Assembly: GCF_027563465.1 (NCBI RefSeq)
Contig: NZ_JAPFQA010000001.1
Span: 186,001 to 250,000, forward strand
Direction: 5' to 3'
From: Mesorhizobium qingshengii
Lineage (GTDB): Bacteria; Pseudomonadota; Alphaproteobacteria; Rhizobiales; Rhizobiaceae
Length of the DNA: 64,000 nucleotides
The notes beneath the pieces are model-generated. The model was not told where the DNA came from. It was given only the letters and a program-made list of their open reading frames with translations, and searched no databases. This document shows, in pieces, positions 27,363-48,131 of this stretch. How positions within the stretch are numbered: position 1 is the stretch's first letter; the number at the start of each line of letters is the position of its first letter. Both the position numbers and the translations under genes were made by a program.

Positions 27363-28169
27363 ATGAGCGCAAAGGCACCCGCATCGGCGGACGAATTTCT
27401 GGGCGGGCTGAAAGGCCAGCGCGTGCTGGTGACGGCGGGCGCCGGCGGCATCGGTTTTGCCATCGCCGACACGCTGTCGCGGCTCGGGGCGCGCATCGTC
27501 GTCTGCGACGTTTCCGACGAGGCGCTGGCCGCCGCTCCGGACAGGATCGACCTGGTCGCGGCAATCAAGGCGGATGTCTCGCGCGACGCGGACGTCGACC
27601 GGCTGTTCGAGGCCGTGAAGGAAAAGCTCGGCGGGCTCGACGCGCTGATCAACAATGCCGGCATTGCCGGGCCGACAGGCGGTGTCGACGAGATCGATCC
27701 GGCCGACTGGCGGCGCTGCATCGACATCTGCCTGACCGGCCAGTTCCTTTGCGCGCGGCGCGCCGTGCCGCTGATCAAGGCGGCGGGCGGCGGCTCGATC
27801 GTGTCGATGTCGTCGGCGGCCGGCCGCCACGGCTACGCGTTCCGCACGCCCTATTCGGCGGCCAAGTTCGGCGTCATCGGTTTCACGCAGAGCCTCGCCA
27901 AGGAGCTTGGGCCGCACAGCATCAGGGTCAATGCCATCCTGCCCGGCATCATCGAGGGGCCCCGCATCGAAGGCGTCATCTCGGCGCGCGCCAAGCAGGT
28001 CGGCATCAGCCACGAGGAGATGACCGGGCGCTATCTGCAGAACATCTCGCTGCGCCGCATGACCAGCCCCTATGATGTGGCTTCGATGGTCGCCTTCCTG
28101 CTGTCCGATTCTGGCATCAACATTTCCGGCCAGTCGCTCGGCGTCGACGGCAATGTCGAAACACTTTGA
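27363..28169 (+). CDS. SDR-family NAD(P)-dependent oxidoreductase
   Basis: The 268-residue protein has the cofactor motif VTAGAGGIGFAIAD near residues 22-35, NNAG near 97-100 and the catalytic Ser with YSAAK near 160-164. It belongs to the classical short-chain dehydrogenases, which oxidise alcohols or aldoses with NAD(P)+. In this operon the most natural task is oxidation of the imported sugar to a lactone or of a sugar-acid hydroxyl. The start lies 13 bp after the permease stop. Confidence 0.9.
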   Translation: MSAKAPASADEFLGGLKGQRVLVTAGAGGIGFAIADTLSRLGARIVVCDVSDEALAAAPDRIDLVAAIKADVSRDADVDRLFEAVKEKLGGLDALINNAGIAGPTGGVDEIDPADWRRCIDICLTGQFLCARRAVPLIKAAGGGSIVSMSSAAGRHGYAFRTPYSAAKFGVIGFTQSLAKELGPHSIRVNAILPGIIEGPRIEGVISARAKQVGISHEEMTGRYLQNISLRRMTSPYDVASMVAFLLSDSGINISGQSLGVDGNVETL

Positions 28170-28180
28170 GGAACCGATCC

Positions 28181-29128: not shown

Positions 29129-30087
29129 CGCAAACAAACCGCAAGCCGGGTACCGCGCAGGTCAAGGGCAAGGTCATCATCACCTGCGCGGTGACCGGGG
29201 CGATCCATACGCCGACCATGTCGCCCTATCTGCCGATCACGCCGGACCAGATCGCCTCCGAGGCGATCGCCGCGGCGGAAGCCGGGGCCGCGATCCTGCA
29301 TCTGCATGCCCGCGACCCGGAGACCGGCAAGCCCGACCAGACGCCGGAGGCGTTTGCCCGCTTCCTGCCGCGCGTCAAGCAAGGCACCAATGCCGCCATC
29401 AACATCACCACCGGCGGCAGTCCCTACATGAAGGTCGAGGAGCGCGTGCGCCCTGCCGCCCAGTTCAAACCGGAAGTTGCCTCGCTCAACATGGGCTCGA
29501 TCAATTTCGGGCTCTATCACCTCGCCGACAAATACGAGACCTTCAAGTTCGACTGGGAAAAGCCGCATCTGGAAGCGACGCGCGACCTGGTCTTCCGCAA
29601 TTCGTTCAAGGACATCGAATACATTCTGGCCACCTGCTACGACAACGGCACGCGCTTCGAGTTCGAGTGCTATGACATCGCCCATCTCTACAACCTCGCC
29701 CATTTCGCCGATCGCGGGCTGGTGAAGCCGCCTTTCTTCGTGCAGTCGGTGTTCGGCCTGCTCGGCGGCATCGGCACCCATCCGGAAGACGTCGCCCATA
29801 TGAAGCGCACCGCCGACCGGCTGTTCGGTGATCAGTTCCGCTGGTCGGTGCTGGGCGCCGGCGCCAGCCAGCTTCGCATCGCCGCGCAATCGGCAGCGCT
29901 TGGCGGCAACATCCGCGTCGGGCTGGAGGACAGCCTGTGGGCGGGCAAGGGCAGACTGGCGAAGTCCAATGCCGAACAGGTGCTGCTTGCGCGCAAGATC
30001 ATCGAGGGGCTTGGCATGGAGGTGGCGACGCCCGACGAGGCGCGCGAGATCCTGTCATTGAAGGGCGGCGACAAGGTCGCTTTCTGA
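29125..30087 (+). CDS. Beta-keto acid cleavage enzyme (BKACE, DUF849)
   Basis: The 320-residue protein begins near GKVIITCAVTGAIHTPTMSP and has the zinc-site motif AAILHLHARDPETGKPDQTP, then NITTGG and GSINFGLYHLADKYETFKFD. BKACE proteins condense a beta-keto acid with acetyl-CoA and split it to acetoacetate plus a new acyl-CoA. The founding member cleaves 3-keto-5-aminohexanoate in lysine fermentation, but the family has many substrates. Its start overlaps the stop of the 3-hydroxyacid dehydrogenase gene, so the two steps are probably consecutive. The polar or charged group of the substrate cannot be read from sequence with confidence. Confidence 0.92.
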   Translation: MTQTNRKPGTAQVKGKVIITCAVTGAIHTPTMSPYLPITPDQIASEAIAAAEAGAAILHLHARDPETGKPDQTPEAFARFLPRVKQGTNAAINITTGGSPYMKVEERVRPAAQFKPEVASLNMGSINFGLYHLADKYETFKFDWEKPHLEATRDLVFRNSFKDIEYILATCYDNGTRFEFECYDIAHLYNLAHFADRGLVKPPFFVQSVFGLLGGIGTHPEDVAHMKRTADRLFGDQFRWSVLGAGASQLRIAAQSAALGGNIRVGLEDSLWAGKGRLAKSNAEQVLLARKIIEGLGMEVATPDEAREILSLKGGDKVAF

Positions 30088-30132
30088 CGCGCCTGACCAA
30101 TCGCCGCGCGGCGCCAAACAGAGGAGGACGGT

Positions 30133-31011
30133 ATGAAGATCGAAGTCGTGGTGGACGTGAAGACCACACTGGGCGAAGGCCCGCTGTGGGATGTCGAGCA
30201 GGAGCGTCTCTACTGGATCGACAGTTTCGACGGTCGTGTGTTCCGGGCGACCGCCGACGGGCGTGAGATCCGCTGCTGGGACGTGCCGATGAAGATCGGT
30301 TCGATGGCGCTGCGCAAGGATGGCAGCGGCGCGGTGGTGTCACTGCAGCGTGGCTTCCATCTGCTTGATTTCGCCTCCGGCGATGTGACGCTGATCCACG
30401 ATCCCGAGCCGGACAGGCCGATGAACCGTCTCAACGACGGCAAGGTCGACCGGCGCGGCCGCTTCTTCGCCGGCTCGATGGATACGATGGAGGAGGGGCC
30501 GTCCGGCGGTCTCTACAGGCTCGACGCGGACTTCTCCGTCACCAGGATCGATTCCGGCATCATCTGCTCGAACGGGCCGTGCTGGAGCCCCGACGATCGC
30601 ACCTTCTATTTCGCCGACACCTGGACCGGCGAGATCTGGGCCTATGACTACGACATCGCCACCGGCGCGGCCACCAACCGCCGCACCTTTACCCGCGTCG
30701 ACACCAGCCGGGGTGGCGCGGCCGATGGCTCGACCGTCGATGCCGAAGGCTATCTGTGGAATGCTCTGGTCTATGACGGTCGCCTGGTGCGCTACGCGCC
30801 GGACGGCAGCATCGACCGCATCATCGACATGCCGGTGAAGAAGATCACCAGCGTCATGTTCGGCGGGCCAAAGCTCGACACCCTGTACGTCACCTCGATG
30901 GCCAAGCCGCCGCTGCCGCGATTTCCCGGCGACGGTGTCTTGCGCGGCAGCCTGTTCGCCATCACCGGTCTCGGCGTGACCGGAATAGCCGAGCCCAGGT
31001 TTGCCGGGTAA
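30133..31011 (+). CDS. SMP-30/gluconolactonase (LRE) family lactonase
   Basis: The 292-residue protein follows an excellent ribosome-binding site (GAGGAGGAC). The six-bladed propeller pattern is clear: GEGPLWDVEQERLYWID, where the Glu is a metal ligand, then MNRLNDGKVDRRGRFFAGSM and SNGPCWSPDDRTFYFADT, where the Asn and Asp residues complete the site. Such enzymes hydrolyse aldonolactones with a divalent cation. In this operon it would open a lactone formed by the SDR dehydrogenase. It is the last gene before the convergent LysR gene. Confidence 0.9.
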   Translation: MKIEVVVDVKTTLGEGPLWDVEQERLYWIDSFDGRVFRATADGREIRCWDVPMKIGSMALRKDGSGAVVSLQRGFHLLDFASGDVTLIHDPEPDRPMNRLNDGKVDRRGRFFAGSMDTMEEGPSGGLYRLDADFSVTRIDSGIICSNGPCWSPDDRTFYFADTWTGEIWAYDYDIATGAATNRRTFTRVDTSRGGAADGSTVDAEGYLWNALVYDGRLVRYAPDGSIDRIIDMPVKKITSVMFGGPKLDTLYVTSMAKPPLPRFPGDGVLRGSLFAITGLGVTGIAEPRFAG

Positions 31012-31172: not shown

Positions 31173-32078
31173 CTAACGACTGTTCGGAATGTAGAACGTC
31201 TGCCTGAAATAGGACCGAAACGCCTCCATGGCGGGGGTGAACTGGGCATTGCGGCGCCAAGCCAGGCCGACATCCATCGCCGGGATCGGGTCGCTCGGCA
31301 CCAGCGTTTCGATGCGCTTGCCTTCCAGCGACCATGGCCGCAAAACCATGTCCGAGAGAATTGCGACGCCTTGTCCGTTGGCGACCATCGAGCGCACCGC
31401 CTCGACGGAGGATGTGCGCAGCGTGACCGACGGCTGATAGGGTGTCTTGCTCCAGTATTTCAGTGAGGTGTGCGCCGCCTCGTCGACGGTCAGCATGATG
31501 TAGGGCTCTTGCGAAATTTCCTTCAGGCCGACGGATTCCCGCTGCAGCAGATGATGCTTCGAGGCGACCCAGAGCCGCCGCCGCGAACCCATCAATGTCT
31601 CGGTCGTCAGATCCGGATTGAGCACGTTCGAGGTGAGCAGCACGGCGATGTCGTACCGATTGGACAAAAGGCCCTCCTCGATTGCCTCGCGGTTGAGCTC
31701 GAAAAGCTGGATGTCGAGCTTCGGGAAATTTCGCTTCAGCTTCTCCAGGTGGTTGGGCAGGAAATAGCCGATCACCGTATAGGTCGCCGCGACGGTTAGG
31801 CTGCCCTCTAGGGTGTTCGCCGGCACATTCAGGCTGGTCGCTTCCTGGACCTTGTTGAGGATGTCATAGGCGTGGAACAGGAACTGTCGCCCGGCGGCGG
31901 TCAGTTCCATGCCCTGGGGAGAGCGGACGAACAGGTCGGCGCCGACCTCGCTCTCCAGTTCCTTGATCGCCGTGGTGATTGCCGACTGCGAAATGGCGAG
32001 GTCGACCGCTGCTTGCGAAATCTGGCCTTGCTCGGCGGTCGAGACGAAATAGCGGATCTGGCGCAGGCTGATTGGCAA
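31173..32078 (-). CDS. LysR-type transcriptional regulator
   Basis: The 301-residue protein appears to start with TTG at 32078 (reads LPISLRQIRYFVSTAEQGQI), since the winged helix of LysR proteins begins right here; no stronger start is visible. The helix-turn-helix covers about residues 18-37 (ISQAAVDLAISQSAITTAIK) and the effector domain about 90-295. It is divergent from the PxpA-biotin carboxylase operon, which it probably controls. Palindromic TCTGA-type repeats in the spacer at 32117-32271 are candidate binding sites. Confidence 0.9.
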   Translation of the reverse strand: MPISLRQIRYFVSTAEQGQISQAAVDLAISQSAITTAIKELESEVGADLFVRSPQGMELTAAGRQFLFHAYDILNKVQEATSLNVPANTLEGSLTVAATYTVIGYFLPNHLEKLKRNFPKLDIQLFELNREAIEEGLLSNRYDIAVLLTSNVLNPDLTTETLMGSRRRLWVASKHHLLQRESVGLKEISQEPYIMLTVDEAAHTSLKYWSKTPYQPSVTLRTSSVEAVRSMVANGQGVAILSDMVLRPWSLEGKRIETLVPSDPIPAMDVGLAWRRNAQFTPAMEAFRSYFRQTFYIPNSR

Positions 32079-32271: not shown

Positions 32272-32368
32272 AGAATTTTCCAATGCCGCGCTCCCGCGTT
32301 AACGTTCAAAAAAACAAGAAGACGGGAACCGCGCTATCGATCGGCGCATGAAATGCAAAGGGAGCAAC

Positions 32369-33175
32369 GTGCCAGTCACGGTTGTCGACATCAATTGCGA
32401 TATGGGTGAAGCGTTCGGCCAATGGCGGCTGAGCGACACCGACGATGCCAGGCTGATGGAACTGATCAGCTCCGCCAACATCGCCGCCGGTTTCCACGCT
32501 GGCGATCCCAATCTGATGGACGCCACCGTGCGGCTTGCGACCCAGCACGGCGTCGGCATCGGCGTGCATCCGGGCTATCGGGATCTGCAAGGTTTTGGCC
32601 GCCGCAAGATCAACGGCACTGGCGACGAGATCGTCAACGACATCGTCTATCAGATCGGAGCGCTCAGGGAATTTGCTCGGCGTCATGGCGCCGTCCTGCA
32701 GCACGTCAAGCCGCACGGCGCCCTCTACATGGAACTCGCCGCCGACGAGGCGCTGTCGCGGTCCTTCATCAAGCTGATGCGCACCGTGGCGCCCAATGCC
32801 TTCGTCTTCTGCATGGGCATGTCGCAGACCTATCGCACCGCCCTCGAGGCCGGCCAACCGGTCATCAGGGAATTCTATGCCGATCGGGACTACGATCGCT
32901 CCGGCTCGATCGTTTTCACGCGGCATGTTGGCAAGCTCGATCCGGCCGGCATTGCCGACAAGGTCGTGCGCGCCTGTCTCGAGGGCAAGGTCCGCACCGT
33001 CGATGGCGCCGACATCGACATCGATTTCGAGTCGATCTGCTTTCATTCCGACACGCCGGGTTGCCTGGAGATCGCCGCCACCATGCGTTCCGCCTTGGTC
33101 GCGAACGGGATCCGGATCGCACCGGTGTCGGAAGTGTCCGCCCAACAGACCCATGCCGCAAGGGGATCAAAATGA
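32369..33175 (+). CDS. pxpA: PxpA-like LamB/YcsF family protein (5-oxoprolinase subunit A type)
   Basis: I chose the GTG at 32369, preceded by AAGGGAG, over the ATG at 32348; the product is then about 268 residues and begins close to [20 protein letters not shown], the family opening. Other blocks are [35 protein letters not shown] and [14 protein letters not shown]. LamB/YcsF proteins are the catalytic ring-opening subunit of ATP-dependent 5-oxoprolinase together with PxpB and PxpC. Here the operon also supplies a biotin carrier and biotin carboxylase, so the substrate may be another lactam or cyclic amide. The stop overlaps the next start (ATGA). Confidence 0.9.
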
Positions 33176-33414
33176 GCAAAGCCGAAATCAAGTCGCCGCT
33201 GCCAGGCATGTTCTACCGCAGGCCGTCGCCGGACAGCGCGCCGTTCAAGAACGATGGCGACGCCGTTTCCGCCGCCGATGTGATCGGCATTGTCGAGGTG
33301 ATGAAGTCTTTCCATGAAGTGACGGCCGGCATCGACGGCAAGGCGATCCGTTTTCTCGTCGACGATGCCGATGCGGTCATGGCCGGCCAGGCGCTTGCCG
33401 AGGTCGAGGCATGA
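33172..33414 (+). CDS. Small biotin carboxyl carrier protein
   Basis: The 80-residue protein reads [20 protein letters not shown] at its start and has the biotinylation motif EVMKSF, with Lys45 as the biotin acceptor, and [12 protein letters not shown] at its end. It is essentially a bare biotinyl domain with none of the long Ala/Pro linker of AccB. It sits between pxpA and the biotin carboxylase gene with ATGA overlaps on both sides, so its stoichiometry is coupled to both. Its carboxyl group acceptor is probably a PxpBC-type carboxyltransferase. The gene is hidden inside a longer spurious frame. Confidence 0.88.
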
Positions 33415-34796
33415 CCATCAGTTCCGTCCTGATTGCCAATCGAGGCGAGATCGCGGTGCGGATCATCCGCGCGGCGAAGGCCCTGGGGCTGAGGACAGTG
33501 CAGGTGTACAGCCACGCCGATGCGGGCTCGCTGGCGGTGCAACTGGCCGACGAGGCGATCGACATCGGACCGCCGGCGGCGAAGAAATCCTACCTGAACA
33601 TCGAGGCGGTGCTCGCGGCGGCCAGGGCGGCGAAGGTCGATGCCATCCATCCGGGCTACGGCTTCCTGTCGGAGAATGCCGACTTCGCCGAAGCCGTGGT
33701 TGCAGCGGGAATGAAATTCGTCGGACCGGATGCTTCGGCCATCCGGCTGCTTGGCGACAAGGTGGTGGCGCGCCAGGTCGCGGCCAGGGCCGGCGTGCCC
33801 ACCGTGCCCGGCAGCGACGGGCGCGTCTCCGACATCACCGAGGCGGCGGCGATCGTCGCGCGCATCGGCTTTCCAGTGATGATCAAGGCGGCCGCTGGCG
33901 GCGGTGGCAGGGGCATCCGCATCGCACACACCCTCGAGGACTTCGAGCGTCATTTCCCGCAAGCTTCGGCCGAGGCTGCGGCGGCCTTTGGTGACGGCGG
34001 CCTTTACATCGAGAAGGTTATCGAGAAGGCGCGTCATGTCGAGGTGCAGATCCTCGGCGACGGCAGGAATTTCGTTCATTGCTACGAGCGCGAGTGCTCG
34101 CTGCAGCGGCGCCGGCAGAAGGTCTGGGAGGAAGCCCCGGCCGCCGGACTGCCGGCCGATGTGCGCGAAAGCCTGTGCGACAGCGCCGTCGCCCTGGCGC
34201 GCTCGGTCGGCTACAGCGGTGCCGGAACGGTCGAATATCTCTACGACGACGCCAGCCGCGACTTCTATTTCATCGAGGTCAACACCCGCATCCAGGTCGA
34301 GCACCCGGCGACGGAGATGATCACCGGTCTCGATCTCGTGCAGGAGATGCTGCGCATCGCCGGTGGCCAGCCTCTGTCGGTCAGGCAGGAAGACATTTCC
34401 ATTGCCGGCCACGCCATCGAATGCCGGATCAACGCCGAGGATCCGCACAGGGGTTTCATGCCCGGTCCTGGCACCGTCGAAACGCTCGTCGTGCCGCGGG
34501 GCGAGGGCATCCGCTTCGACACCATGCTGTTTGCCGGCTACACGGTGCCGCCCTTCTACGATTCGCTTTTGGGAAAGCTCATCGTGCATGGCTCCGATCG
34601 CGCCGCCTGCCTGGCGAAGCTGCGCACGGCACTTGCCGGTCTCAGGATCACCGGCATTCCGACGACGGTGCCGCTGCATCAGGCGCTCGCCGCCGATGCC
34701 GACGTGGCGGCGGGGCGCTTCCATACGCGTTTTCTCGAGGACTGGCTGGAAACGAAATTCGCCGCTTCGGCAGGCGGCGCGAGGGAGGTGGCCTGA
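33411..34796 (+). CDS. Biotin carboxylase subunit (AccC-like)
   Basis: The 461-residue protein has VLIANRGEIAVRIIRAAKAL at its start, AAGGGGRGIRIAHTLEDFER as the glycine-rich ATP lid, IEVNTRIQVEHPATEMITG with the catalytic Glu and Arg, and the C-terminal biotin carboxylase domain with AIECRINAEDPHRGFMPGPG. It carboxylates the biotin on the small carrier protein with ATP and bicarbonate. It is not likely to be the housekeeping AccC, since it lies in a catabolic operon and overlaps its neighbours by ATGA at both ends. Confidence 0.93.
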   Translation: MTISSVLIANRGEIAVRIIRAAKALGLRTVQVYSHADAGSLAVQLADEAIDIGPPAAKKSYLNIEAVLAAARAAKVDAIHPGYGFLSENADFAEAVVAAGMKFVGPDASAIRLLGDKVVARQVAARAGVPTVPGSDGRVSDITEAAAIVARIGFPVMIKAAAGGGGRGIRIAHTLEDFERHFPQASAEAAAAFGDGGLYIEKVIEKARHVEVQILGDGRNFVHCYERECSLQRRRQKVWEEAPAAGLPADVRESLCDSAVALARSVGYSGAGTVEYLYDDASRDFYFIEVNTRIQVEHPATEMITGLDLVQEMLRIAGGQPLSVRQEDISIAGHAIECRINAEDPHRGFMPGPGTVETLVVPRGEGIRFDTMLFAGYTVPPFYDSLLGKLIVHGSDRAACLAKLRTALAGLRITGIPTTVPLHQALAADADVAAGRFHTRFLEDWLETKFAASAGGAREVA

Positions 34797-35671
34797 TGAA
34801 GAACCGCTATTCATTCGGTGGCGACGAGCATCTCTTCGTCGAATGCGACGAGAGCATGTCGCTGGAGGCGTTCTTCAAGAGCCTCTCTATGACCAATGCC
34901 GTGCGCGACAGCCAGATCAGAGGCGTGACCGAGATATGCCCGGCGAACGCCTCGTTCCAGATCAAGTTCAATCCCGACATCATCCGGCCCGATGACATGC
35001 TGCGCGAGGTGCAGGCCATCGAAAGTGCGGCCAGCAAGACCGATCCGGTGATCGCCACCAGGATCATCGAAATCCCTGTTTTCTACCAGGATCCCTGGAC
35101 GCACGAGACGCTGATGCGTTTCCGCGAGCGGCACCAGGACCCGCAGGCCACCGATCTCGAATACGCCGCCCGCATCAACAATTACTCGACCGTCGACGAC
35201 TTCATCGCCGCCCATGCCGGCTCGCCGTGGTTCGTGTCGATGGTCGGCTTCGTCGCCGGATTGCCGTTCATGTACCAGATGGTCGACCGGCCGCGGCAGA
35301 TCCAGGTGCCGAAATATCTCAGGCCGCGCACCGACACGCCAAAGCTCACCATCGGCTATGGCGGCTGCTTTTCCTGCATCTATTCCGTGCGTGGCGCCGG
35401 CGGCTACCAGATGTTCGGCATCACGCCGATGCCGATCTTCGATCCGGAGCAGAAGACCAGCTACCTCCGTGACTTCATGGTGTTCTTCCGCCCAGGCGAC
35501 ATCGTCAAGTTCAAGCCGATCGGCCGCGAGGAATACGACCATACCGTCGAGGAAGTCGCCGCCGGCCGGTTTGCCCCGGCAATCAGTGACGTCACCTTCG
35601 ACCTGCGTGAATTCCAGAAGGACATCGACGGCTACAACGCCAGGCTGGAGGGTATGATCAATGGCCGTTAA
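34796..35671 (+). CDS. pxpB: PxpB-like protein (KipI family), biotin-dependent carboxyltransferase subunit
   Basis: The 291-residue protein starts with an ATG overlapping the upstream stop codon. It has an extended N-terminal region of about 80 residues, then the KipI/allophanate-hydrolase subunit 1 pattern with IPVFYQDPWTHETLMRF, MVGFVAGLPFMYQM, KLTIGYGGCFSCIYSVRGAG and MFGITPMPIFDPEQ. Family members pair with the KipA/PxpC protein to form a carboxyltransferase-like heterodimer. The usual PxpB is about 220 residues, so this one is about 70 longer. It overlaps the pxpC start by 11 bases. Confidence 0.85.
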   Translation: MKNRYSFGGDEHLFVECDESMSLEAFFKSLSMTNAVRDSQIRGVTEICPANASFQIKFNPDIIRPDDMLREVQAIESAASKTDPVIATRIIEIPVFYQDPWTHETLMRFRERHQDPQATDLEYAARINNYSTVDDFIAAHAGSPWFVSMVGFVAGLPFMYQMVDRPRQIQVPKYLRPRTDTPKLTIGYGGCFSCIYSVRGAGGYQMFGITPMPIFDPEQKTSYLRDFMVFFRPGDIVKFKPIGREEYDHTVEEVAAGRFAPAISDVTFDLREFQKDIDGYNARLEGMINGR

Positions 35672-36632
35672 GGTGCTCAATCCGGGGCTTTCGACCACGG
35701 TTCAGGATCTCGGCCGTCCCGGCTATTTTCATCTCGGCATCCCGATCGGCGGTGCCATGGACCGGCTGGCGCTGCGCGCCGCCAATCTGATCGTCGGCAA
35801 TGACGAGGGTGCGGCAGGTCTCGAGGCGGTGTTCATCGGGCCGCAGCTCGAATTCACCCGCGACGCGCTGATCGCGGTGAGCGGTGCCGACATGCCGATC
35901 AAGCTCGACGGCGAGGAGAAGCCGTCCTGGACCGGGCTGAAGGTCAAGGCTGGCCAGGTGCTGAGCTTTGGCTTCCTGAAGACAGGCGCGCGCATCTACA
36001 TCGCAATCGCTGGCGGCATCGACGTGCCGATCGCGCTCGGCAGCCGCTCGACCTACCCGATCGGCGCGCTGGGCGGCTTCAAGGGACGCGCCATCGCCAA
36101 GGGCGACGAATTGCCCGTCGGCAACGCCGGTTCCGGCAAGGAAGGGCAAAGCGTCCCGGAAGCCTTGCGTCGGCGACCGGGAATGCCGGCCGAACTGCGG
36201 GTCCTGCCGGGCCTCTATTGGCATCGCGTCACCGAGCAGTCGCATCAGAACTTCTTCGACGACCAATGGAAGGTGGCGCCCGAGGCGGACCGCATGGGTT
36301 ATCGCTTCCGCGGCGGCCGGCCGTTGCAATTCGTCGAACGCGACCAGCCGTTCGGGGCCGGCTCGGATCCCTCCAACATCGTCGACAGCTGCTACCCCTA
36401 CGGTTCGATCCAGGTGCCGGGCGGCACCGAGCCGATCATCCTGCATCGCGACGCGGTCTCGGGTGGCGGCTACTTCATGGTCGGCACGGTGGTCTCGGCC
36501 GACATGGACCTGATCGGCCAGCTGCAGCCGAACACGCCAACGCGTTTCGTCAAGGTCGACATGGACGGCGCGCTGAAGGCCCGCGCCGACCGGGCGGCAT
36601 TGCTCGACAGGATCAGGAGCGTTTTCAACTGA
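35661..36632 (+). CDS. pxpC: PxpC-like protein (KipA family), biotin-dependent carboxyltransferase subunit
   Basis: The 323-residue protein starts MAVKVLNPGLSTTVQDLGRP, the family hallmark, and has GIPIGGAMDRLALRAANLIV with the conserved GAMD motif, then AGGIDVPIALGSRSTYPIGA and DSCYPYGSIQVPGGTEPIIL. This corresponds to the second half of urea-amidolyase-type carboxyltransferase domains. With PxpB it would move the carboxyl group from biotin, or phosphorylate and open a ring in the biotin-free version. It ends the first half of the operon; the binding-protein gene follows 64 bp later. Confidence 0.88.
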   Translation: MAVKVLNPGLSTTVQDLGRPGYFHLGIPIGGAMDRLALRAANLIVGNDEGAAGLEAVFIGPQLEFTRDALIAVSGADMPIKLDGEEKPSWTGLKVKAGQVLSFGFLKTGARIYIAIAGGIDVPIALGSRSTYPIGALGGFKGRAIAKGDELPVGNAGSGKEGQSVPEALRRRPGMPAELRVLPGLYWHRVTEQSHQNFFDDQWKVAPEADRMGYRFRGGRPLQFVERDQPFGAGSDPSNIVDSCYPYGSIQVPGGTEPIILHRDAVSGGGYFMVGTVVSADMDLIGQLQPNTPTRFVKVDMDGALKARADRAALLDRIRSVFN

Positions 36633-36696
36633 CATTTGGGTAAGTGCGGCCGAACCGTCCTCGAGGCGGCGGCCGATAACAAGAAAGGGGAATGAC

Positions 36697-37764
36697 ATGA
36701 AAAATCTCGGAAGAATGATGCTTGTGACGGCGGCGACTTTGATTACCGGCGCCGCCTATGCCGCCGACTGGTATCCATACGACGCGGCCAAGATCGAGCC
36801 GCCTTTTGCGGCCGACGGCAAGTCGGTCGATGTCACCTACGTGCCGCTCGACAAGGCGTCGAAACCCTGGAACATCTGCGTCTCCTTTCCGCATATGAAG
36901 GACGCCTACTGGCTTGGTGTCGATTACGGCGTGGCGGAGGAGGCCAAGCGGCTCGGCGTCAAGATGAACCTGTTCGAAGCTGGCGGCTACACCGAGCTCG
37001 ACAAGCAGATTTCGCAGATCGAGGATTGCGTCGCCGCCGGCGCGCAAGCGGTCGTCATCGGCGCGATCTCCGCCGACGGCCTCAACAATCTCGTTTCGGA
37101 AATCCACAAGAAGAACATCCCGGTGATCGACGTCATCAACGGCATCTCGTCGCCGGACATCTCGGCGAAGTCGCTGGTGTCCTTCTACACGATGGGTTCG
37201 GAAGCCGGCGCCTATCTGGCCAAGAAACATCCGGCGGGCAGCGAAGAGGTGGAGGTGGGCTGGTTCCCCGGACCGGCGGGCGCTGGCTGGGTGAGCGCGG
37301 CGAACCAAGGCTTCCTCGACGCCGTCAAGGGCTCCGCGGTCAAGGTGCTGGAACCCAAGTTCGGTGACACCGGCAAGGAAGTTCAGCTGAAGCTCGTCGA
37401 GGACGCGCTGCAGGCCAATCCGAACATCCGCTACATCGCAGGCACCGCGGTGACGGCGGAAGCCGCGCAGGGCGTCATTCGCGAGCGCGGCCTGCAAGGC
37501 AAGGTCGACCTGCTCTCCTTCTACATGACGCCTGGCGTCTATGAGGGCATCAAGCGCGGCTTCATCCTCGCTTCCCCGGCCGACTCGATGGTCATCCAGG
37601 GCCGTATTGCCGTGGACCAGGCCGTCCGCATCCTGGAAGGCAAGGACTACATCAAGCACGTCGGTCCGAAAATCTTTGTTGTCGATCCGTCCAATATCAA
37701 GGACGTTTCGCCGACGAACATCTTGCCGCCGGATGGCTACAAGCCGGTCTTCAACGTGAACTGA
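36697..37764 (+). CDS. TorT/RbsB-like periplasmic binding protein
   Basis: The 355-residue protein opens with a signal peptide (MKNLGRMMLVTAATLITGAA) ending at AYAA. The mature part begins DWYPYDAAKIEPPF and carries NICVSFPHMKDAYWLGVDYG, EDCVAAGAQAVVIGAISADG and WFPGPAGAGWVSAANQG, which match TorT, the periplasmic component of the TMAO-sensing system, more than classical ribose-binding proteins. Here it is followed by an RbsA/RbsC-type ATPase and permease, so it is a transport protein. TorT similarity hints at a small N-containing ligand. A 12-bp hairpin follows. Confidence 0.87.
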   Translation: MKNLGRMMLVTAATLITGAAYAADWYPYDAAKIEPPFAADGKSVDVTYVPLDKASKPWNICVSFPHMKDAYWLGVDYGVAEEAKRLGVKMNLFEAGGYTELDKQISQIEDCVAAGAQAVVIGAISADGLNNLVSEIHKKNIPVIDVINGISSPDISAKSLVSFYTMGSEAGAYLAKKHPAGSEEVEVGWFPGPAGAGWVSAANQGFLDAVKGSAVKVLEPKFGDTGKEVQLKLVEDALQANPNIRYIAGTAVTAEAAQGVIRERGLQGKVDLLSFYMTPGVYEGIKRGFILASPADSMVIQGRIAVDQAVRILEGKDYIKHVGPKIFVVDPSNIKDVSPTNILPPDGYKPVFNVN

Positions 37765-37779
37765 TCGCGACAAGCGCTG

Positions 37780-37809
37780 TCCGGTTCCGCCAGGCAAGGC
37801 GGGACCGGA
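37780..37809 (+). repeat. 12-bp hairpin after the TorT-like gene
   Basis: TCCGGTTCCGCC pairs with GGCGGGACCGGA (one G-T pair) over a six-base loop, 15 bp after the stop codon and before the ATPase gene. There is no T-run. It has the same position as the hairpins at 23652 and 48984. Confidence 0.65.
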
Positions 37810-37825
37810 TCGACCGGGTTGGCAA

Positions 37826-39343
37826 ATGGACAACGCAAACACCCCACTGGTGGAAATGACCCGGATCTCGAAGGAGTTCCCCGGCGTCAAGGCTCTTGAT
37901 GGCGTCGATTTCAGGCTCCAGCGTGGAGAGGTTCATGTGCTGTTCGGCGAGAATGGTGCTGGAAAGTCGACGCTCATCTCGATCCTCTCCGGCCTCTACA
38001 GGCCGACATCCGGTTCGCTGCGCATCGATGGAGAGGAAGTCGACCTGCGCTCGGTCCATGACGCCGCCAGACATGGCATCGGCACGGTGTTCCAGGAATT
38101 CTCGCTGATCCCGACATTGCGTGTCTTCGAGAACGTCTATCTCGGCCGCGAGCTCAAGCGCGGTCCTTTGACCGACCGGCGCGCCATGGCCGAGGGTGCA
38201 CGCGCTTTGTTCCATGACCTGGGCTTCGAGATCGACATCCGCCGGCGCGTTTCCACTCTGTCGCGCGCTGAGCAGCAGATGGTGGAGATCGCAAAGGTGT
38301 TTCTTGGCAAGGCGAGGGTCCTGATCCTCGACGAGCCGACCGCCTCGCTCACCGAGAAGGAAACGCGCAAGCTTTTCGCCTTCATCGCCAAGGCGAAGGC
38401 CGACGGCGTCGGCATCATCTACATTTCACATCGCATCCAGGAATTCCGCGAAATCGCCGACAACATCAGCGTGCTCCGTGACGGCCGTCTGATCGGGACG
38501 GTGTCGGCGCGCGACACCTCCGAGAAGACGCTTGTCGAGTTGATGACCGGTCGGGCGATCGATCAGATCTATCCCGAGATCGGCCGCCAGCCGGATGGCA
38601 GGACGCTGATGACGCTGCGCCGGATGCACGGCGCCGGCTTTCATGGCGTTGATATCGACGTGCGTGCCGGCGAGGTCCTGGGGGTTGCCGGCCTGGTCGG
38701 CAGCGGCAAGTCGCGGATCTGGCGCAGCGTTCTTGGGTTGCAGCCGATCCGGTCAGGCACGGTCACGCTGAAGGGGCGCGACGTGACCCATGCGGCGACG
38801 AGGCATATGCTGCGCGGCGGCGTCTACTATTTGCCGCCTGACCGCAAGGGCGAGGGCCTGCAACTGGCGGCAACGGCACGCGAGAACATCAAGCTCAACC
38901 TGCTCGGCCGGGCCGAGATCGTGGGGCGCCTCGGAATTGTTGCGCCGCGTCGCGCCAGGGCATTGGCCGACAAGATTGGCGAGCGCGTCGGCATTGCCTC
39001 GGCCCATATGGGCCGCATTGTCTCGAAACTTTCGGGCGGCAACCAGCAGAAGGTGCTGTTCGGCAAGGGATTTGGCGAGGAGCGGGACATCTACATCTTC
39101 GATGAGCCGACGGTCGGCGTCGACATGGGCACCCGCGCCGCGCTCTACCGGCTGATCAAGGAGATCGCCGAGGCCGGCAAGGCGGTGGTGGTGATCTCCT
39201 CCGACCTGCCGGAGGTGATGAACCTTACGCACCGCCTGTTGGTCTTCTCGAAGGGCAGAGTGTCGGCCGAGCTCACCGGCACCGAGATCGCGGAGGAAAA
39301 TGTCCTGAAATATTTCTTTGCGGAGACGGGTATCCAGCCATGA
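37826..39343 (+). CDS. ABC transporter ATP-binding protein (RbsA-like, two ATPase domains)
   Basis: The 505-residue protein has in the first domain Walker A GENGAGKSTLI, a degenerate signature LSRAEQQMVEIAKVF and Walker B RVLILDEPTASLT. The second domain has LVGSGKSRIWRSVL, signature LSGGNQQKVLFGKG and Walker B IYIFDEPTVGVD, so it looks catalytically more complete than usual for this class. It serves the TorT-like binding protein and the permease whose start overlaps its stop (ATGA). Confidence 0.93.
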   Translation: MDNANTPLVEMTRISKEFPGVKALDGVDFRLQRGEVHVLFGENGAGKSTLISILSGLYRPTSGSLRIDGEEVDLRSVHDAARHGIGTVFQEFSLIPTLRVFENVYLGRELKRGPLTDRRAMAEGARALFHDLGFEIDIRRRVSTLSRAEQQMVEIAKVFLGKARVLILDEPTASLTEKETRKLFAFIAKAKADGVGIIYISHRIQEFREIADNISVLRDGRLIGTVSARDTSEKTLVELMTGRAIDQIYPEIGRQPDGRTLMTLRRMHGAGFHGVDIDVRAGEVLGVAGLVGSGKSRIWRSVLGLQPIRSGTVTLKGRDVTHAATRHMLRGGVYYLPPDRKGEGLQLAATARENIKLNLLGRAEIVGRLGIVAPRRARALADKIGERVGIASAHMGRIVSKLSGGNQQKVLFGKGFGEERDIYIFDEPTVGVDMGTRAALYRLIKEIAEAGKAVVVISSDLPEVMNLTHRLLVFSKGRVSAELTGTEIAEENVLKYFFAETGIQP

Positions 39344-40383
39344 CCATTCAGAGCAGCCGAACCGAGGATGCAGGGGCGCCGCGAACCCGCGCCAACATTC
39401 TGCTGGCGGCCATAAGATACGTGTTCCTGCGTGTCGGGGTGCTGCCGTTCTTCCTGGTCTTTTCGCTGGTCGTCTTCTCCCTGATCTCGAACCAGTTCCT
39501 GTCGATCCAGAACCTGACCAACGTCGCCAGGCAGTCTGTCTATCTGGTTCTGGTTTCGCTGGGTCAGATGCTGGTCCTCATCACCGGAGGTTTTGATCTC
39601 TCGGTTGGCACGGCGATCGCAATGACTTCGGTTGTGTCGGCGATGGCGATGGTCGCGCTGGCGCCGGTCATGCCGGACATGATCTGGCTGGCGATCCTGC
39701 TCGGCGCCGGTGCGGGACTGGGTGCCGCTCTGCTGATCGGGTGCCTGAACGGCCTCGGCATCGCCCAGTTCGACGTCTCGCCCTTCATCATGACCCTTGG
39801 CGTGCAGTCGGTCGGCGCGGGCATCGCGCTGTTCCTGACCGGCGGCGTTCCGATATCCGGACTGCCCTACGATTTCGGTAATTTCTTCGGCTTCGGGCGG
39901 GTGCTCGGCATTCCCGTGCCGGTGATGATCGCCTTGCTGGCGATCGTTGGCATCTGGCTCTTGATGAACCGAACGAAACTGGGTTCTCACATCTACGCGG
40001 TCGGCGGCAATGTCAGGGCGGCCAACCTCTCGGGCGTCAACACCAAGCGGGTGCTGTTCCTGGCCTATGTCCTGTGCGCGCTGCTGGCCTCTCTCGCCGG
40101 TCTTCTGCTCACGGCCCGGGTCGAGTCCGGCGAAACCAATCTTGGCGGCACCATCGCGCTGGAATCGATTGCCGCCTGTGTCATTGGCGGGGTTTCCCTG
40201 CGGGGAGGGCTCGGCCGTGTGGAGAATGTCGTTCTTGGCGCCTTCTTCATCGTGCTGCTGCAGAATGGCATGAACATCGCCCAGATCGGCTCGTACATGC
40301 AGATGGTGCTGCTTGGCTCGCTGCTGGTGCTCGCCGTGATCCTCGACCAATTCCGCTACCGCATGCTGGTTGGCGACCGCTGA
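39340..40383 (+). CDS. ABC transporter permease (RbsC-like)
   Basis: The 347-residue protein has about nine to ten hydrophobic segments and the family signatures GQMLVLITGGFDLSVGTAIA and, near the end, SIAACVIGGVSLRGGLGRVE. It is of normal single-permease length, unlike the fused one at 25268. Substrate is the same as for the TorT-like protein and probably the compound processed by the PxpABC/biotin enzymes. The start overlaps the ATPase stop. Confidence 0.92.
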   Translation: MTIQSSRTEDAGAPRTRANILLAAIRYVFLRVGVLPFFLVFSLVVFSLISNQFLSIQNLTNVARQSVYLVLVSLGQMLVLITGGFDLSVGTAIAMTSVVSAMAMVALAPVMPDMIWLAILLGAGAGLGAALLIGCLNGLGIAQFDVSPFIMTLGVQSVGAGIALFLTGGVPISGLPYDFGNFFGFGRVLGIPVPVMIALLAIVGIWLLMNRTKLGSHIYAVGGNVRAANLSGVNTKRVLFLAYVLCALLASLAGLLLTARVESGETNLGGTIALESIAACVIGGVSLRGGLGRVENVVLGAFFIVLLQNGMNIAQIGSYMQMVLLGSLLVLAVILDQFRYRMLVGDR

Positions 40384-40416
40384 CGGCAATCACTCAAACA
40401 CCGAAAAGGAAAGACC

Positions 40417-41016
40417 ATGATTTCCTCAACCTATCCCACGCTTGCAGAACAGGCCTTCTCTGGCCGCACGACGGCGCTCAGGAACGGTGTTCTGGCCATC
40501 GCCGGATCGCTGGCGCTGTGGCTGTCGGCCAAACTGCAGGTTCCGTTCTACCCAGTACCGATGACCATGCAGACCTTTGTCGTCCTGGTGATCGGAACAA
40601 GTTTCGGATGGCGGCTGGGCGCTGCCACAGTCGCTCTCTATCTCATCGAAGGCGCGCTCGGGCTTCCGGTTTTCGCCGGAACGCCTGAGAAAGGCATCGG
40701 TCTCGCCTATATGGTCGGTCCGACCGGCGGCTACCTCCTCGGCTATCTGCCCGCCGCGGCACTTTGCGGCTTCCTCGCCAGCCACGGCTGGGATCGCAGG
40801 ATCGTCACGACGGCGCTTTCCATGCTTTTGGGAACGGTCGTCATCTATGCCTTCGGACTTTCCTGGCTGGGCACCGTCGTTGGGTGGGACAAGCCGATCC
40901 TGGCCTGGGGCCTCACGCCCTTCGTCCTTGGCGATCTGCTCAAGCTGGCGCTTGCCACCGCGGTCCTGCCGCTGGCCTGGAAATTTGTTGGCCGGACGCG
41001 CGACGGCGATCACTGA
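40417..41016 (+). CDS. bioY: Biotin transporter BioY
   Basis: The 199-residue protein has six hydrophobic segments and the BioY patterns LQVPFYPVPMTMQTFVVLVI, EGALGLPVFAGT and MVGPTGGYLLGYLPAAALCG. BioY is the substrate-binding component of the ECF biotin importer. No ecfA or ecfT gene is nearby, so it either works with shared ECF subunits or alone. Its place in an operon with a dedicated biotin carboxylase and carrier suggests biotin uptake is matched to demand for this pathway. No separate promoter is obvious; it starts 34 bp after the permease. Confidence 0.94.
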   Translation: MISSTYPTLAEQAFSGRTTALRNGVLAIAGSLALWLSAKLQVPFYPVPMTMQTFVVLVIGTSFGWRLGAATVALYLIEGALGLPVFAGTPEKGIGLAYMVGPTGGYLLGYLPAAALCGFLASHGWDRRIVTTALSMLLGTVVIYAFGLSWLGTVVGWDKPILAWGLTPFVLGDLLKLALATAVLPLAWKFVGRTRDGDH

Positions 41017-41079: not shown

Positions 41080-41940
41080 GTGCCCGGACAGAATGGAGAG
41101 CGCTTCCATGCAGCGACGTCGCTGGCCGATGCGATAGCCGCTCTTGCCGATCGCGGGTCGGCTGGAGCAGCTCTTGCCGGTGCGACCTGGATCATGCGGG
41201 CCCCGCTCAGGCACGAGCGGCGGGACCTGTCCTATGTGGCGATTTCCAGGATCGACGAGTTGCGGCGGCTGGATATTCTCGATCGCGAGATCAGCATAGG
41301 TGCCTGCGTGACCCATGCCGAAGTGGCACGCTCGCTTGGGGCCCTGCCCGAATGCCGGGCGCTGGCGCAGGCCGCCGCCAACTCCGCAAATCCTGCAGTC
41401 CGCAACGTTGCCACGATTGGCGGAAATCTCTGCGCTTCGGCCTTTGCCGCGGCTGATCTGGTGCCTGCCCTGCTATGCCTCGATGCCGAACTCGAAATCG
41501 AAGGTGCGAAAGGGTCCGAACGGATGACGGTCAAGCGTTTCCTGGAGGTGAGGACAGATATCGAACCCGACCGTCTCGTCCGCCGCGTGATCGTTCCACG
41601 CACGACGCGGCGCTCGGTCCATATAAGGCTCCCGCTGCGCAAGGCAGGGGACTACCCCGTGGCAATCGTGAGCCTGGCTGCGACCTTGAACCCGGCCGGT
41701 GTCGTCGAAAGCGCCAGGGTGGCGGTGGGCTCGGTCGAACCCGTTGCGCGCCGCTGGGAGCAGCTCGAAACAAACCTTGTCGGCCAAAGCCTCGATCCAC
41801 GCCGCGCGACCGAACAAGCCGAGCGGTTTTGCGCAGATTTTCTTGGCCGCGAAGGCGTCGAGGCGCCTGGCTGGTACCGGGTGAAGGTGCTTCCCAGCCT
41901 CGTGCGCCGCGCCGTGCTCGCCCTTCAAGAGCAGTCCTGA
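41080..41940 (+). CDS. Molybdenum hydroxylase FAD-binding subunit (CoxM/XdhB-like)
   Basis: A GTG start at 41080 gives 286 residues. The FAD-binding patterns of the CO dehydrogenase/xanthine dehydrogenase medium subunit are AGAALAGATWIMR (a variant of the first glycine-rich loop) and NPAVRNVATIGGNLCASAFAA (second loop, TIGGN). It passes electrons from the 2Fe-2S clusters to NAD or another acceptor. It follows bioY by 64 bp on the same strand and precedes the small and large subunits, giving the order medium-small-large. Confidence 0.9.
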   Translation: MPGQNGERFHAATSLADAIAALADRGSAGAALAGATWIMRAPLRHERRDLSYVAISRIDELRRLDILDREISIGACVTHAEVARSLGALPECRALAQAAANSANPAVRNVATIGGNLCASAFAAADLVPALLCLDAELEIEGAKGSERMTVKRFLEVRTDIEPDRLVRRVIVPRTTRRSVHIRLPLRKAGDYPVAIVSLAATLNPAGVVESARVAVGSVEPVARRWEQLETNLVGQSLDPRRATEQAERFCADFLGREGVEAPGWYRVKVLPSLVRRAVLALQEQS

Positions 41941-41967
41941 AGCTCGTACCCGGAAGAGATCAAGCCG

Positions 41968-42426
41968 ATGTCCTTGCGTCTCGTGATCAATGGTGAAGAT
42001 CGAGTTTCGCGCGCCGAACCGCTCACGCCGCTTGTCGACGTGTTGAGGGACGAATTCCATCTGACGGGAGCGAAAGTCGCATGCCGCGAGGGCTTCTGCG
42101 GCGCCTGCACCGTCCACCTCGACGGACAGCCGGTCGTGTCCTGCCTGGTGCCGCTCGGCACGGTCGAGGGACGAGAAGTGCGCACGGTCGAATTGCTTGC
42201 GACGGCGGGCGAGCTATCGCCGCTGCAGCGGATCATGGAAGAGCACGACGTCGTCCAGTGCGGCATGTGCTTTCCCGGTATCCTGATGGTCCTCACGAGC
42301 TTCTTCCAGGAGCACCCGCGGGCCGAAAGGGATGAAATCAAGGCGGCGCTCGTCGGCAACATCTGCCGGTGCACCGGCTATGAGCACCTGGTCGATGCGG
42401 CCGTGGCGTTGGCGAAGCGGAGCTGA
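41968..42426 (+). CDS. Molybdenum hydroxylase 2Fe-2S subunit (CoxS-like)
   Basis: The 152-residue protein has the ferredoxin-type cluster motif ACREGFCGACTVHLDG followed by the Cys of SCLVP (residues about 40-65) and the second cluster motifs QCGMCFPGILM and NICRCTGYEHLVDA. These are the two [2Fe-2S] clusters of the xanthine oxidase family. It carries electrons from the molybdenum centre in the large subunit to the FAD subunit. The large-subunit frame starts three bases after its stop. Confidence 0.94.
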   Translation: MSLRLVINGEDRVSRAEPLTPLVDVLRDEFHLTGAKVACREGFCGACTVHLDGQPVVSCLVPLGTVEGREVRTVELLATAGELSPLQRIMEEHDVVQCGMCFPGILMVLTSFFQEHPRAERDEIKAALVGNICRCTGYEHLVDAAVALAKRS

Positions 42427-42429
42427 GCA

Positions 42430-44795
42430 ATGGCAATCGCGGACCCGTCAAACGTCACGATGAACCTGCCGCGGCGCGACGCACGCGACAAGCTGCTCGG
42501 CCGTACGCGCTACACCGTCGACCGCATGCTGCCGCGCATGCTTCACGCTGCGATCCTGCGATCGGAGGTCGCGTCGGCCCGCATCCTGAAGATCGACATC
42601 ACGCGTGCCCGTCAAATGCCGGGCGTGCGCGCCGTAGCGCTTGCCGAAGACGCCCCGGGAATGCACGGTATCGGCATCGCCGACCATCCGCTCTTCGCCT
42701 CGGGCGTCATCCGCTTTCATGGCGAGCAGATCGCCGCGGTCGCCGCCGACACCTACGAGCAGGCCCAGGCGGCGGCACGCGCGATCGAAGTCGAACTTGA
42801 ACCCCTTCCCATCGTGCTCACCATGGCCGATGCGCTGGCGCCTGGCGCTGCCTTGGTTCACCCCGACTGGAAAAACTACGAAGTTCTGTTCGAAGGCGGC
42901 GCTCGTGGCGGCAACGTTGCCTGGGAAGCGACGGTGGTCCGGGGCGATACCGAAGCGGCGTTCGCCCGCGATGACGTCGTGGTCGTGGAGAGCTGCTTTC
43001 GGGTCGGCCGGCAGAACCATGTCTCGCTCGAACCGCGGGCCGTCGTCGCCTCCTACGAGGACGGTCGCTACCATATCGAGACGTCGACACAGGTTCCGTG
43101 GACGGTTCGCAACATGACGGCGAAGCTGCTGGGTATTCCTGCCTCTCAGGTGCATCTCACGGTGCCGCCCGTGGGCGGGGGGTTCGGTCAGAAATTCGAC
43201 TGTACGCTGGAGCCTTATGCGGCGATCCTGGCGCGCAAATCCGGGCAGCCAGTGCGCCTCGTCTATTCGAGGCAGGAGGAGATGCTGACCTGCCTCTGCC
43301 GCGAAAACGCCGAAATCAAGATCCGATCCGCGGTGACCAAAAGTGGCGACATCGCTGGACGCGAGGCCGTCGTGCTGATGGACTGCGGCGCCTATGGCGG
43401 CGAGCAGATTTTCCTCACGACGATGACGGCGCACACGCTCGGCGGCAACTACAGGCTTGGCTCGGTCAAGCTGGCGAGCCGTGCGGTCTACACCAACACT
43501 CCCCCCAACGGCGCCTTTCGCGCCTGCAACGGTGTCTACAACACATTCGCACTGGAGCGGCATACGGACGAGATCTGCCAGGCCATCGGGATGGATCCGC
43601 TCGAATTCAGGCGGCGGAACGTGCTGGGCGACGGAGACCTTGGCGCGACGGGCCAGGTCTTCGAAGGCGACGTGCTCGGCCCGATGCTTGATCGCATGGC
43701 AAAGCTGCGGGAAGCGTCTCCCAGCAAGAGGCCCGTGGCGGGCGGGCGCCTTTACGGCCGGGCCACCGTGGTGGGCACCTGGTTCATCTTCGTCGGCCCA
43801 CCATCAACCTGAATGCCGACGGCAGCGCGACGCTCATCACCGCCGGGGTCGAGCTTGGCCAGGGCACGATGGTGCAGGCGTTGCCGCAGATCGTCGCCCA
43901 TGAGCTCGGGATTCATCCGAATGACGTGATCGTTCGCAATGCCGATACGGATGCAGCCGGTTTCGATCTCGGCGTCGGCGGAGGCCGCACGACCGTCTCC
44001 GTCGGCGCGGCGAGCCTCGCCGCTGCCGCGGATGTACGCAACAAGATCCTGAATACGGCGAGCGAGTTGCTGCAGACCCAGCCGGAACGGCTGGTCTTGC
44101 GCAATGGACGGGTTGAGATCGCCGGGATCGAGGGATCGGGGATGACCATTGCCCAGGCCGTCCAGCACGCACACCGGTTGACGGGTCCAGTTGTCGGCAG
44201 CGGCTCGTTCACCAATCCTGGCGTGCCGGCGATGCCCGGCTGCGCGGCGGGCCATTTCATCGACGCGATCGATATTCCCGTCTTCAACGTCCATGATTGC
44301 GAGGTCGCGGTGGACCCCGACACCGGCCATGTCGAAATCCTGAGCTACAAGGTGGTGCAGGATGTCGGCCGGGCGCTCAACCCACGCGCCATCCACGGGC
44401 AGATCCAGGGCGGGGTCACGCAGGGACTGGGCTACGCGCTGCATGAAGAGCATACCATCGGCGAGGACGGGTGCATCCGGCAGGACAGCCTCGAGACCTA
44501 TCGCGTTCCACTCGCATTGGATACCGTGCCTGTCGAGATCGACCTCTACGAAGGCGCGCCTTCCATTGGCCCGCTCGGCGCCAAGGGCGCGGGCGAGGTG
44601 CCCATTCTCAATCCCCCGGCAGCCGTCGCCTGCGCCGTCGCCAACGCCACCGGGCGCCGTGTCCAGCAAATGCCGCTCACGCCGCCGCGCGTGCTGGGGC
44701 TTCTGCTGGGCAGGGAACCTGCCGTCGAACTGCCTCACATCGCCGGCAACTGGTGGGACAATGTGCTGATGAGGCCCCGGCCCACTGATCGATGA
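42430..44795 (+). pseudogene. Molybdenum hydroxylase large subunit, frameshifted near 43795-43803
   Basis: The first frame (42430-43812) carries QNHVSLEPRAVVASYEDG, VPPVGGGFGQKFDCTLEP and AFRACNGVYNTFALERHTDE, the molybdopterin-binding blocks. It stops after WFIFVGPPST. The other frame continues at once with INLNADGSATLITAGVELGQ and goes on to the catalytic glutamate region GAKGAGEVPILNPP, ending at 44795. Loss of one base in the GGCCCACCATC stretch explains the break. Joined, the protein would be about 788 residues, normal for the family. With all catalytic motifs intact this is a recent mutation or a sequence error; if real, the hydroxylase is inactive. Natural substrates are N-heterocycles, purines or aldehydes. 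Confidence 0.88.
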
Positions 44796-48102: not shown

Positions 48103-48131
48103 CCAACCAATAATTCAGAAAGGGGAATGAA

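Follow-up and report, generated by a model that had tools for sequence, protein, structure and literature searches.

A candidate biotin-dependent, lactam-opening relative of urea carboxylase encoded with PxpA in Mesorhizobium qingshengii

In a 64,000-nucleotide stretch of the genome of Mesorhizobium qingshengii, a soil relative of nodule-forming rhizobia (contig NZ_JAPFQA010000001.1, positions 186,001 to 250,000 of the forward strand; hereafter the window), five overlapping genes place homologues of the 5-oxoprolinase subunits PxpA, PxpB and PxpC in one operon with a stand-alone biotin carrier and a biotin carboxylase (BC). By family, tree position and predicted fold, the PxpB/PxpC core is sister to urea carboxylase, not a 5-oxoprolinase with additions, and together with the biotin parts it very probably constitutes a biotin-dependent carboxyltransferase. 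We lean towards viewing the five genes as one multi-subunit, biotin-dependent ring-opening enzyme that would carboxylate a lactam-like ring for hydrolysis by PxpA; its substrate is probably a cyclic amide. More tentatively, and with somewhat less than even confidence, we propose that this would be a new reaction of biotin, in which carboxylation of the lactam ring by a split urea-carboxylase-type enzyme activates hydrolysis together with PxpA. The gene set, its order, the families, tree position and residues, and the proximity of lactam genes in some relatives, are all read from sequence.

PxpABC reportedly goes back to Niehaus and others (2017). The PxpABC of C. glutamicum is described without biotin parts (PMC13274462).

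The five-gene module

The module consists of the following genes.

32348..33175, + strand: PxpA (LamB/YcsF) ring hydrolase, 275 amino acids (PF03746, 288.6 bits)
33172..33414, + strand: stand-alone biotin carrier, 80 amino acids, biotin site VMK (PF00364, Biotin_lipoyl, 49.5 bits)
33411..34796, + strand: BC, 461 amino acids (Pfam; NF009471, 764.1 bits, cut-off 686)
34796..35671, + strand: PxpB-like carboxyltransferase half (CT_C_D), 291 amino acids (PF02682, 131.8 bits)
35661..36632, + strand: PxpC-like carboxyltransferase half (CT_A_B), 323 amino acids (PF02626, 294.6 bits)

All are intact open reading frames on the + strand, spanning 32348-36632, and each overlaps the next, in succession by ATGA, ATGA, TGATG (one base) and 11 bases. 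The coupling of pxpA, the biotinyl protein, BC, a long PxpB and PxpC noted in a preliminary description of this DNA is thereby confirmed, with a corrected start: position 32369, given there, lies eight codons inside the PxpA reading frame, which opens at ATG 32348.

PxpA passes the curated PxpA subfamily model NF003814 (288.5 bits, cut-off 226), stays below the cut-off of three equivalog models and matches 1V6T, 2DFA, 2XU2 and 1XW8 in the PDB. The carrier passes NF005457 (124.1 bits, cut-off 87) and aligns with the E. coli biotin carboxyl carrier protein (BCCP; 1BDO) with the MK site retained, while the BC matches solved biotin carboxylases from end to end. A single operon therefore holds the parts that broadly define a biotin-dependent carboxylase, namely an MK-site carrier, a BC and a carboxyltransferase. 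A profile search of the host genome (6.5 Mb) returned no second PF02682 or PF03746 protein, so no classical PxpABC accompanies the module there. Elsewhere the host encodes additional biotin/lipoyl domains and four more strong BC matches, so the operon copies come on top of these.

The PxpB/PxpC pair lies on the urea carboxylase branch

Relatives were collected by scanning GTDB genomes with the long PxpB, which gave 494 related stretches, of which the best 80 loci were taken; among these, the closest named relative is a Mesorhizobium tianshanense protein, 99% identical in PxpB. A 397-genome sample of the phylum added 18 further members of this PxpB class, and since four pairs represent the same locus, 94 are distinct. 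For comparison we used 60 PxpBC loci, a non-random set drawn with gaps from the listed best-scoring places, and nine urea/guanidine carboxylase rows, those for which loci were returned from among many more carboxylases listed. Class loci cover about 20 kb for most relatives and comparison loci at most about 13 kb.

Family models place the pair nearer to urea carboxylase than to 5-oxoprolinase. PxpB scores 116.6 bits against TIGR02712 (urea carboxylase) versus 67.9 against TIGR00370 (5-oxoprolinase PxpB), whose cut-off of 145.55 it misses. PxpC passes the general 5-oxoprolinase/urea amidolyase domain model TIGR00724 (263.2 bits, cut-off 230.2), misses the 5-oxoprolinase model NF045499 (219.7 bits, cut-off 500) and scores 242.3 bits against TIGR02712. 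The TIGR02712 cut-off of 1303.85 is not reached by any single chain, the best being the BC at 515.8 bits.

In a joint PxpB/PxpC tree of 99 rows (28 class rows, for which the 80 GTDB loci were thinned to every eighth, two divergent loci, nine urea/guanidine carboxylases and 60 other PxpBC pairs), a single split (support 1.0) unites the class with the divergent loci and the carboxylases, apart from the 60 PxpBC. The predicted fold of PxpB (mean pLDDT 78.5) is likewise closest to K. lactis urea carboxylase 3VA7 (Z 19.9 over 264 residues, rmsd 3.2), versus a Z of about 13-14 over 180-200 residues for PxpB/KipI-type structures. The view that biotin proteins were merely added to a classical 5-oxoprolinase was dropped as the leading explanation because PxpB and PxpC fall on the urea carboxylase branch.

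The two divergent split carboxylases (L161 and L162) have PxpB proteins of 37% and 32% identity and carry BC and carrier; L162 has no PxpA within the fetched 20 kb. They possibly act on yet another substrate.

Carboxylase-type catalytic residues beside a PxpBC-like pocket

In urea carboxylase, K1605 has been named as the likely general base of the carboxyltransferase (PMC5770610). Lys173 of PxpB aligns with K1605 of K. lactis urea amidolyase, and Lys occupies this site in 98/98 class rows (94 distinct), in both divergent rows and in all nine carboxylases, versus Arg in all 60 comparison rows (51 without a nearby BC, six fused PxpBC and three others with a nearby BC). The PxpC motif PSNxxD follows the same division: its Asp, common with the carboxylases, is found in 94/96 BC-linked class rows (two gaps) and in both class rows without a BC, and is replaced by Ser in 60/60 comparison rows.

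The recognition sites behave differently. Positions 1584 and 1330 have been singled out for substrate choice in the urea and guanidine enzymes (PMC11410670). Site 1584 is Phe in 98/98 class rows versus Asp in 9/9 carboxylases, and site 1330 is Gln in 96/98 class rows (two gaps) versus Asn or Asp in 9/9 carboxylases; Phe and Gln are also found in nearly all PxpBC rows. In the window's protein, site 1584 corresponds to Phe152 by profile alignment or to Gly151 by pairwise alignment, neither being Asp, and site 1330 to Gln251, so that it has neither the urea set (Asp1584, Asn1330) nor the guanidine set (Asp1584, Asp1330). Judged by these alignments, the pair has a PxpBC-like pocket but the residues that urea carboxylase uses for carboxyl transfer, and this hybrid is the main reason for the mechanism proposed below.

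Conservation of the gene order and of the biotin parts

The exact order PxpA-BCCP-BC-PxpB-PxpC, on one strand and within 4.5 kb, is kept in 89 of the 94 distinct relatives, which takes the arrangement beyond chance. The remaining five comprise two with an extra PxpA or BC match, one cut by a contig end and two without BC and BCCP. PxpA is present in every class locus except any cut by a contig end, and five further comparison loci have PxpA, PxpB and PxpC without a BC. Within the order, the PxpB class was found in 36 of 297 sampled genomes.

The class loci yield 96 biotin-domain rows, with duplicate loci counted and at least one row (L158) lying outside the module; all carry the MK site (94 VMK, two AMK). 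In a tree of 64 BCs, the class BCs and one divergent BC form a single clade (support 0.999), apart from the four other BCs of the host genome and 13 from four other genomes. Conserved order, a single BC clade and the urea-carboxylase-type Lys together support the suggestion that the biotin parts belong to the PxpABC-like enzyme. The alternative named in the preliminary description, a BC working for an unrelated acyl-CoA carboxylase, finds no support in the conserved linkage.

Proposed mechanism and alternatives

In the mechanism we envision, BC would use ATP and bicarbonate to load CO2 onto the biotin of the 80-residue carrier. PxpB and PxpC, acting as carboxyltransferase with Lys173 as the general base in the way presumed for K1605, would then carboxylate the ring amide of a lactam-like substrate bound in the PxpBC-like pocket. 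PxpA would hydrolyse the activated ring bond, and the carbamate would then decompose to CO2 and an amino acid. Carboxylation would thus take the place of the phosphorylation assumed for PxpABC (PMC13274462), and the module would be to lactams what urea carboxylase and allophanate hydrolase are to urea. We infer biotinylation, carboxyl transfer, the role of PxpA and the class of substrate, and give the sequence of steps, carboxylation and then hydrolysis, an even chance. The carboxylated intermediate suggested earlier offers the most economical mechanism.

Several observations weigh against this proposal. The fold prediction is poor around Lys173 (block mean pLDDT 53). Within the 20 kb covered, two class loci, L157 and L159, have neither BC nor BCCP. 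Of the 36 genomes with the PxpB class, 25, the window's host included, have no caprolactamase over the cut-off. A BC lies near nine of the 60 Arg-type comparison loci, six of them combining a PxpBC fusion with a BC-BCCP fusion. In PDB entry 9YX5, the M. smegmatis pair MSMEG_0435-0436, of the PxpB/PxpC type, is bound to a long chain acyl-CoA carboxylase complex with AccA3; unlike the module's, its PxpB is Arg-type by alignment and shorter, so that the entry places an Arg-type pair with an AccA3-containing complex. Biotin may therefore work with Arg-type pairs too.

Two strict rules were rejected on these grounds. That Lys marks biotin and Arg its absence fails on the nine Arg-type loci near a BC, on a tenth Arg-type cluster with BC (L280 on G290) and on 9YX5; that a long PxpB is always accompanied by a BC fails on L157 and L159. 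The latter two loci have LysR, PxpA, PxpB and PxpC and keep both the Lys and PSNxxD despite the lack of a nearby BC or carrier; further BC and biotin-domain genes are present elsewhere in both genomes.

The module could instead be a split urea or guanidine carboxylase for nitrogen supply, with PxpA or another enzyme handling the product, as claimed for the mum operon of A. baumannii. Its sister position in the joint tree fits this, as does the failure of A. baumannii lacking the biotin carboxylase gene mumC to grow on urea as nitrogen source (PMC5050338). We nevertheless consider it unlikely: the recognition sites 1584 and 1330 are not kept, PxpA is there in every class locus that a contig end does not truncate, the window has no Rfam match, be it a guanidine riboswitch or another RNA family, and in A. 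baumannii itself the allophanate-hydrolase-like mumH is dispensable for growth on urea (PMC5050338).

Equally improbable, in our estimate, is a biotin-dependent carboxylase of another acceptor, such as an acyclic amide or a ring nitrogen produced by a molybdenum hydroxylase, in which case PxpA would act at a later step. The variety of neighbours detailed below (TorT-type in 34, polyamine-type in 41, NCS1 in 8 and molybdenum hydroxylase in 9 of 96 loci) would suit such an enzyme; caprolactamase and NCS1 neighbours, however, recur in several arrangements, and the nearly constant presence of PxpA argues for a direct partnership. Least probable is a biotin-free PxpABC, in which PxpBC phosphorylates 5-oxoproline or a similar lactam while BC and carrier are merely co-operonic or regulatory: a PxpA above a PxpA subfamily cut-off, the PxpBC-like residues at sites 1584 and 1330 and the two relatives without nearby BC or carrier speak for it, but PxpB and PxpC miss the 5-oxoprolinase cut-offs (67.9 of 145.55 and 219.7 of 500 bits), the pair sits on the carboxylase branch, and BC and carrier have long been kept in translational coupling.

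Neighbouring genes and the class of substrate

The ring-opening enzyme that we favour is flanked in the window by the following genes.

31173..32078, - strand: LysR-type regulator, divergent from the module (Pfam HTH_1 and LysR_substrate)
36697..37764, + strand: TorT/RbsB-type periplasmic binding protein, a variable neighbour (NF008185, 431.4 bits, cut-off 200)
37826..39343, + strand: sugar-type ABC ATPase (PF00005, two stretches)
39340..40383, + strand: ABC permease (PF02653)
40417..41016, + strand: BioY biotin transporter (PF02632, 138.7 bits)
41080..44795, + strand: molybdenum-hydroxylase genes (FAD, iron-sulfur and two large-subunit pieces), a possible pathway partner

The LysR-type gene adjoins the module in nearly all relatives with enough sequence (tblastn). 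Among the importer genes, the binding protein scores slightly below the cut-off of TIGR02955 (303.5 of 310 bits), the ATPase matches NCBIfam sugar-importer models, all below cut-off, and the permease found no match in a search against the PDB.

Neighbours were counted in 96 loci (80 from GTDB, 14 further class loci and the two divergent ones). A TorT-type importer was found in 34 and a polyamine-type ABC importer with two SDR genes in 41, an NCS1-type permease in 8, a molybdenum hydroxylase in 9 and BioY in 10; these markers were absent (0/60) from the comparison loci, a rough control since those are shorter and non-random. The TorT-type importer and BioY are indeed present as intact + strand reading frames (36697-41016), as first described. 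Both fall outside the conserved core (34/96 and 10/96 loci), and the earlier picture of a complete import-and-attack system was too strong, given that the importer varies between loci.

The idea that the system brings its own cofactor supply is weakened by the rest of the genome. BioY lies next to the five genes in three distinct contexts (in Mesorhizobium, in a Rhodobacteraceae metagenome-assembled genome, L038, and in another alphaproteobacterium, L149). The host genome, however, has three BioY genes including this one and no bioB over the cut-off (best match 42.5 bits of 225), so the strain probably imports its biotin. The module-adjacent BioY may simply serve this general need, and the two further copies weaken a dedicated role.

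The class of substrate is suggested by the neighbours of some relatives. Molybdenum hydroxylases can make lactams from ring imines. Caprolactamase requires ATP and bicarbonate (PMC8453981), and 10 of the 96 loci have, either upstream or downstream of the module, HyuA and HyuB genes that share 70% or more identity with tested caprolactamase genes. A HyuA-type neighbour occurs in 14 loci; of the eight that were family-scanned, five exceed the caprolactamase cut-off (L010, L025, L046, L053, L150) and three fall below it (L043, L147, L160). Across the 297 genomes of the order, caprolactamase alpha passes its curated cut-off in 13, with at most three candidates scored per genome, and the PxpB class is present in 36; both occur together in 11 (hypergeometric 1.2e-9, assuming independent genomes). 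Eight of the 13 have the two genes no more than 5 kb apart, although these linked cases come from three families and are non-independent; of the other five, two have them on different contigs, one about 96 kb apart, and two lack the class PxpB. An NCS1-type permease (cytosine, purine, allantoin) lies downstream of PxpC in some loci; four were tested, of which two exceed the Pfam cut-off and the other two score slightly below it. Caprolactamase, NCS1-type permease and molybdenum-hydroxylase neighbours together point to cyclic amides as a class and to no single compound; the cyclic amide proposed in the preliminary description is consistent with the caprolactamase and permease linkage.

One relative, L053, has caprolactamase genes with its module and encodes, on the - strand, an L-piperidine-6-carboxylate dehydrogenase (4180-5754; 814.4 bits, cut-off 730) and an amidase (19291-20649; 602.2 bits, cut-off 559). 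Our guess is that they hint at a six-membered ring lactam, e.g. 6-oxopipecolate.

Relation to known systems

Urea/guanidine carboxylase (K. lactis 3VA7, 5I8I) unites BC, carrier and both carboxyltransferase halves in a single chain and has in common with the module the general-base Lys, the PSNxxD motif and the nearest fold for PxpB. The module differs in being made of four separate chains with PxpBC-like recognition residues, and in having PxpA in place of allophanate hydrolase. With PxpABC it has in common the folds and families of the three subunits and the residues at both recognition sites, whereas its PxpB and PxpC lie outside the PxpABC clade and under its cut-offs, Lys stands for Arg, and BC and carrier are added. 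Caprolactamase CapAB (HyuAB type), whose genes lie beside some relatives, also opens a lactam with ATP and a need for bicarbonate, but belongs to other protein families, with no biotin part described in the available portion (PMC8453981).

A second biotin-linked PxpABC was observed at six loci (L199, L211, L212, L214, L220, L221), with PxpA, a fused PxpBC and a fused BC-BCCP. These have the same five functions per locus; they differ in the Arg at the catalytic site and in the separate clades of both PxpBC and BC.

MumL, encoded in the mum operon of A. baumannii, is presumably a LamB/YcsF protein. This operon (mumTLUHC) resembles the module in joining biotin-carboxylase-family and allophanate-hydrolase-like proteins, and differs in its manganese transporter and in urea as the named substrate, a likeness drawn by description (PMC5050338). 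An unfused PxpB/PxpC-type pair was noted in 2011 without a function (PMC3199775). A study of Lactiplantibacillus pentosus listed an additional BCCP and BC pair, and also pxpB/pxpC, among the features that distinguish the species, and drew no connection between the two (PMC12427679). Annotated plasmids carry the database name 'biotin-dependent carboxyltransferase family protein', and no description of a biotin-dependent PxpABC or lactam carboxylase was found in the open-access literature searched, which leaves most subscription papers outside. With the mum operon and 9YX5 as near precedents, what would be new, if shown, is biotin-driven lactam opening.

Keto acids are among the known substrates of biotin-dependent carboxylases. 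Acyl-CoAs, urea and guanidine are others (PMC3199775; PMC12186494), and lactam acceptors, if the proposal is true, would add a further class, with biotin as a lactam-opening cofactor. The PxpABC label would then hide a second, chemically different enzyme in many genomes. The family is common (494 stretches in the genome scan; 36 of the 297 genomes of the order). PxpBC-type carboxyltransferase domains would gain a chemical role beyond urea carboxylase, and a route for lactam breakdown would come into view, perhaps including nylon precursors.

Other genes of the window

The molybdenum-hydroxylase large subunit is split between 42430-43812 and 43869-44795 (+ strand). The two pieces are in different reading frames and hit neighbouring portions of the same models, where the relative L003 has one open reading frame of 817 amino acids; the split is a frameshift or an assembly error. 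Further downstream, 47110-58474 (+ strand) encodes a proline racemase/hydroxyproline epimerase-family protein (below cut-offs), amino-acid-type ABC genes, an aldehyde dehydrogenase, a GMC oxidoreductase-type protein, an HpcH/HpaI aldolase and a DAO-type oxidase, a set that looks like ring amino acid breakdown. Upstream, at 28166-31011 (+ strand), tandem genes for a 3-hydroxyacyl-CoA-dehydrogenase-type protein, a beta-keto acid cleavage enzyme and an SMP-30 lactonase presumably resemble carnitine-type breakdown; the same three genes also occur in L005 and L006, there too upstream of the module.

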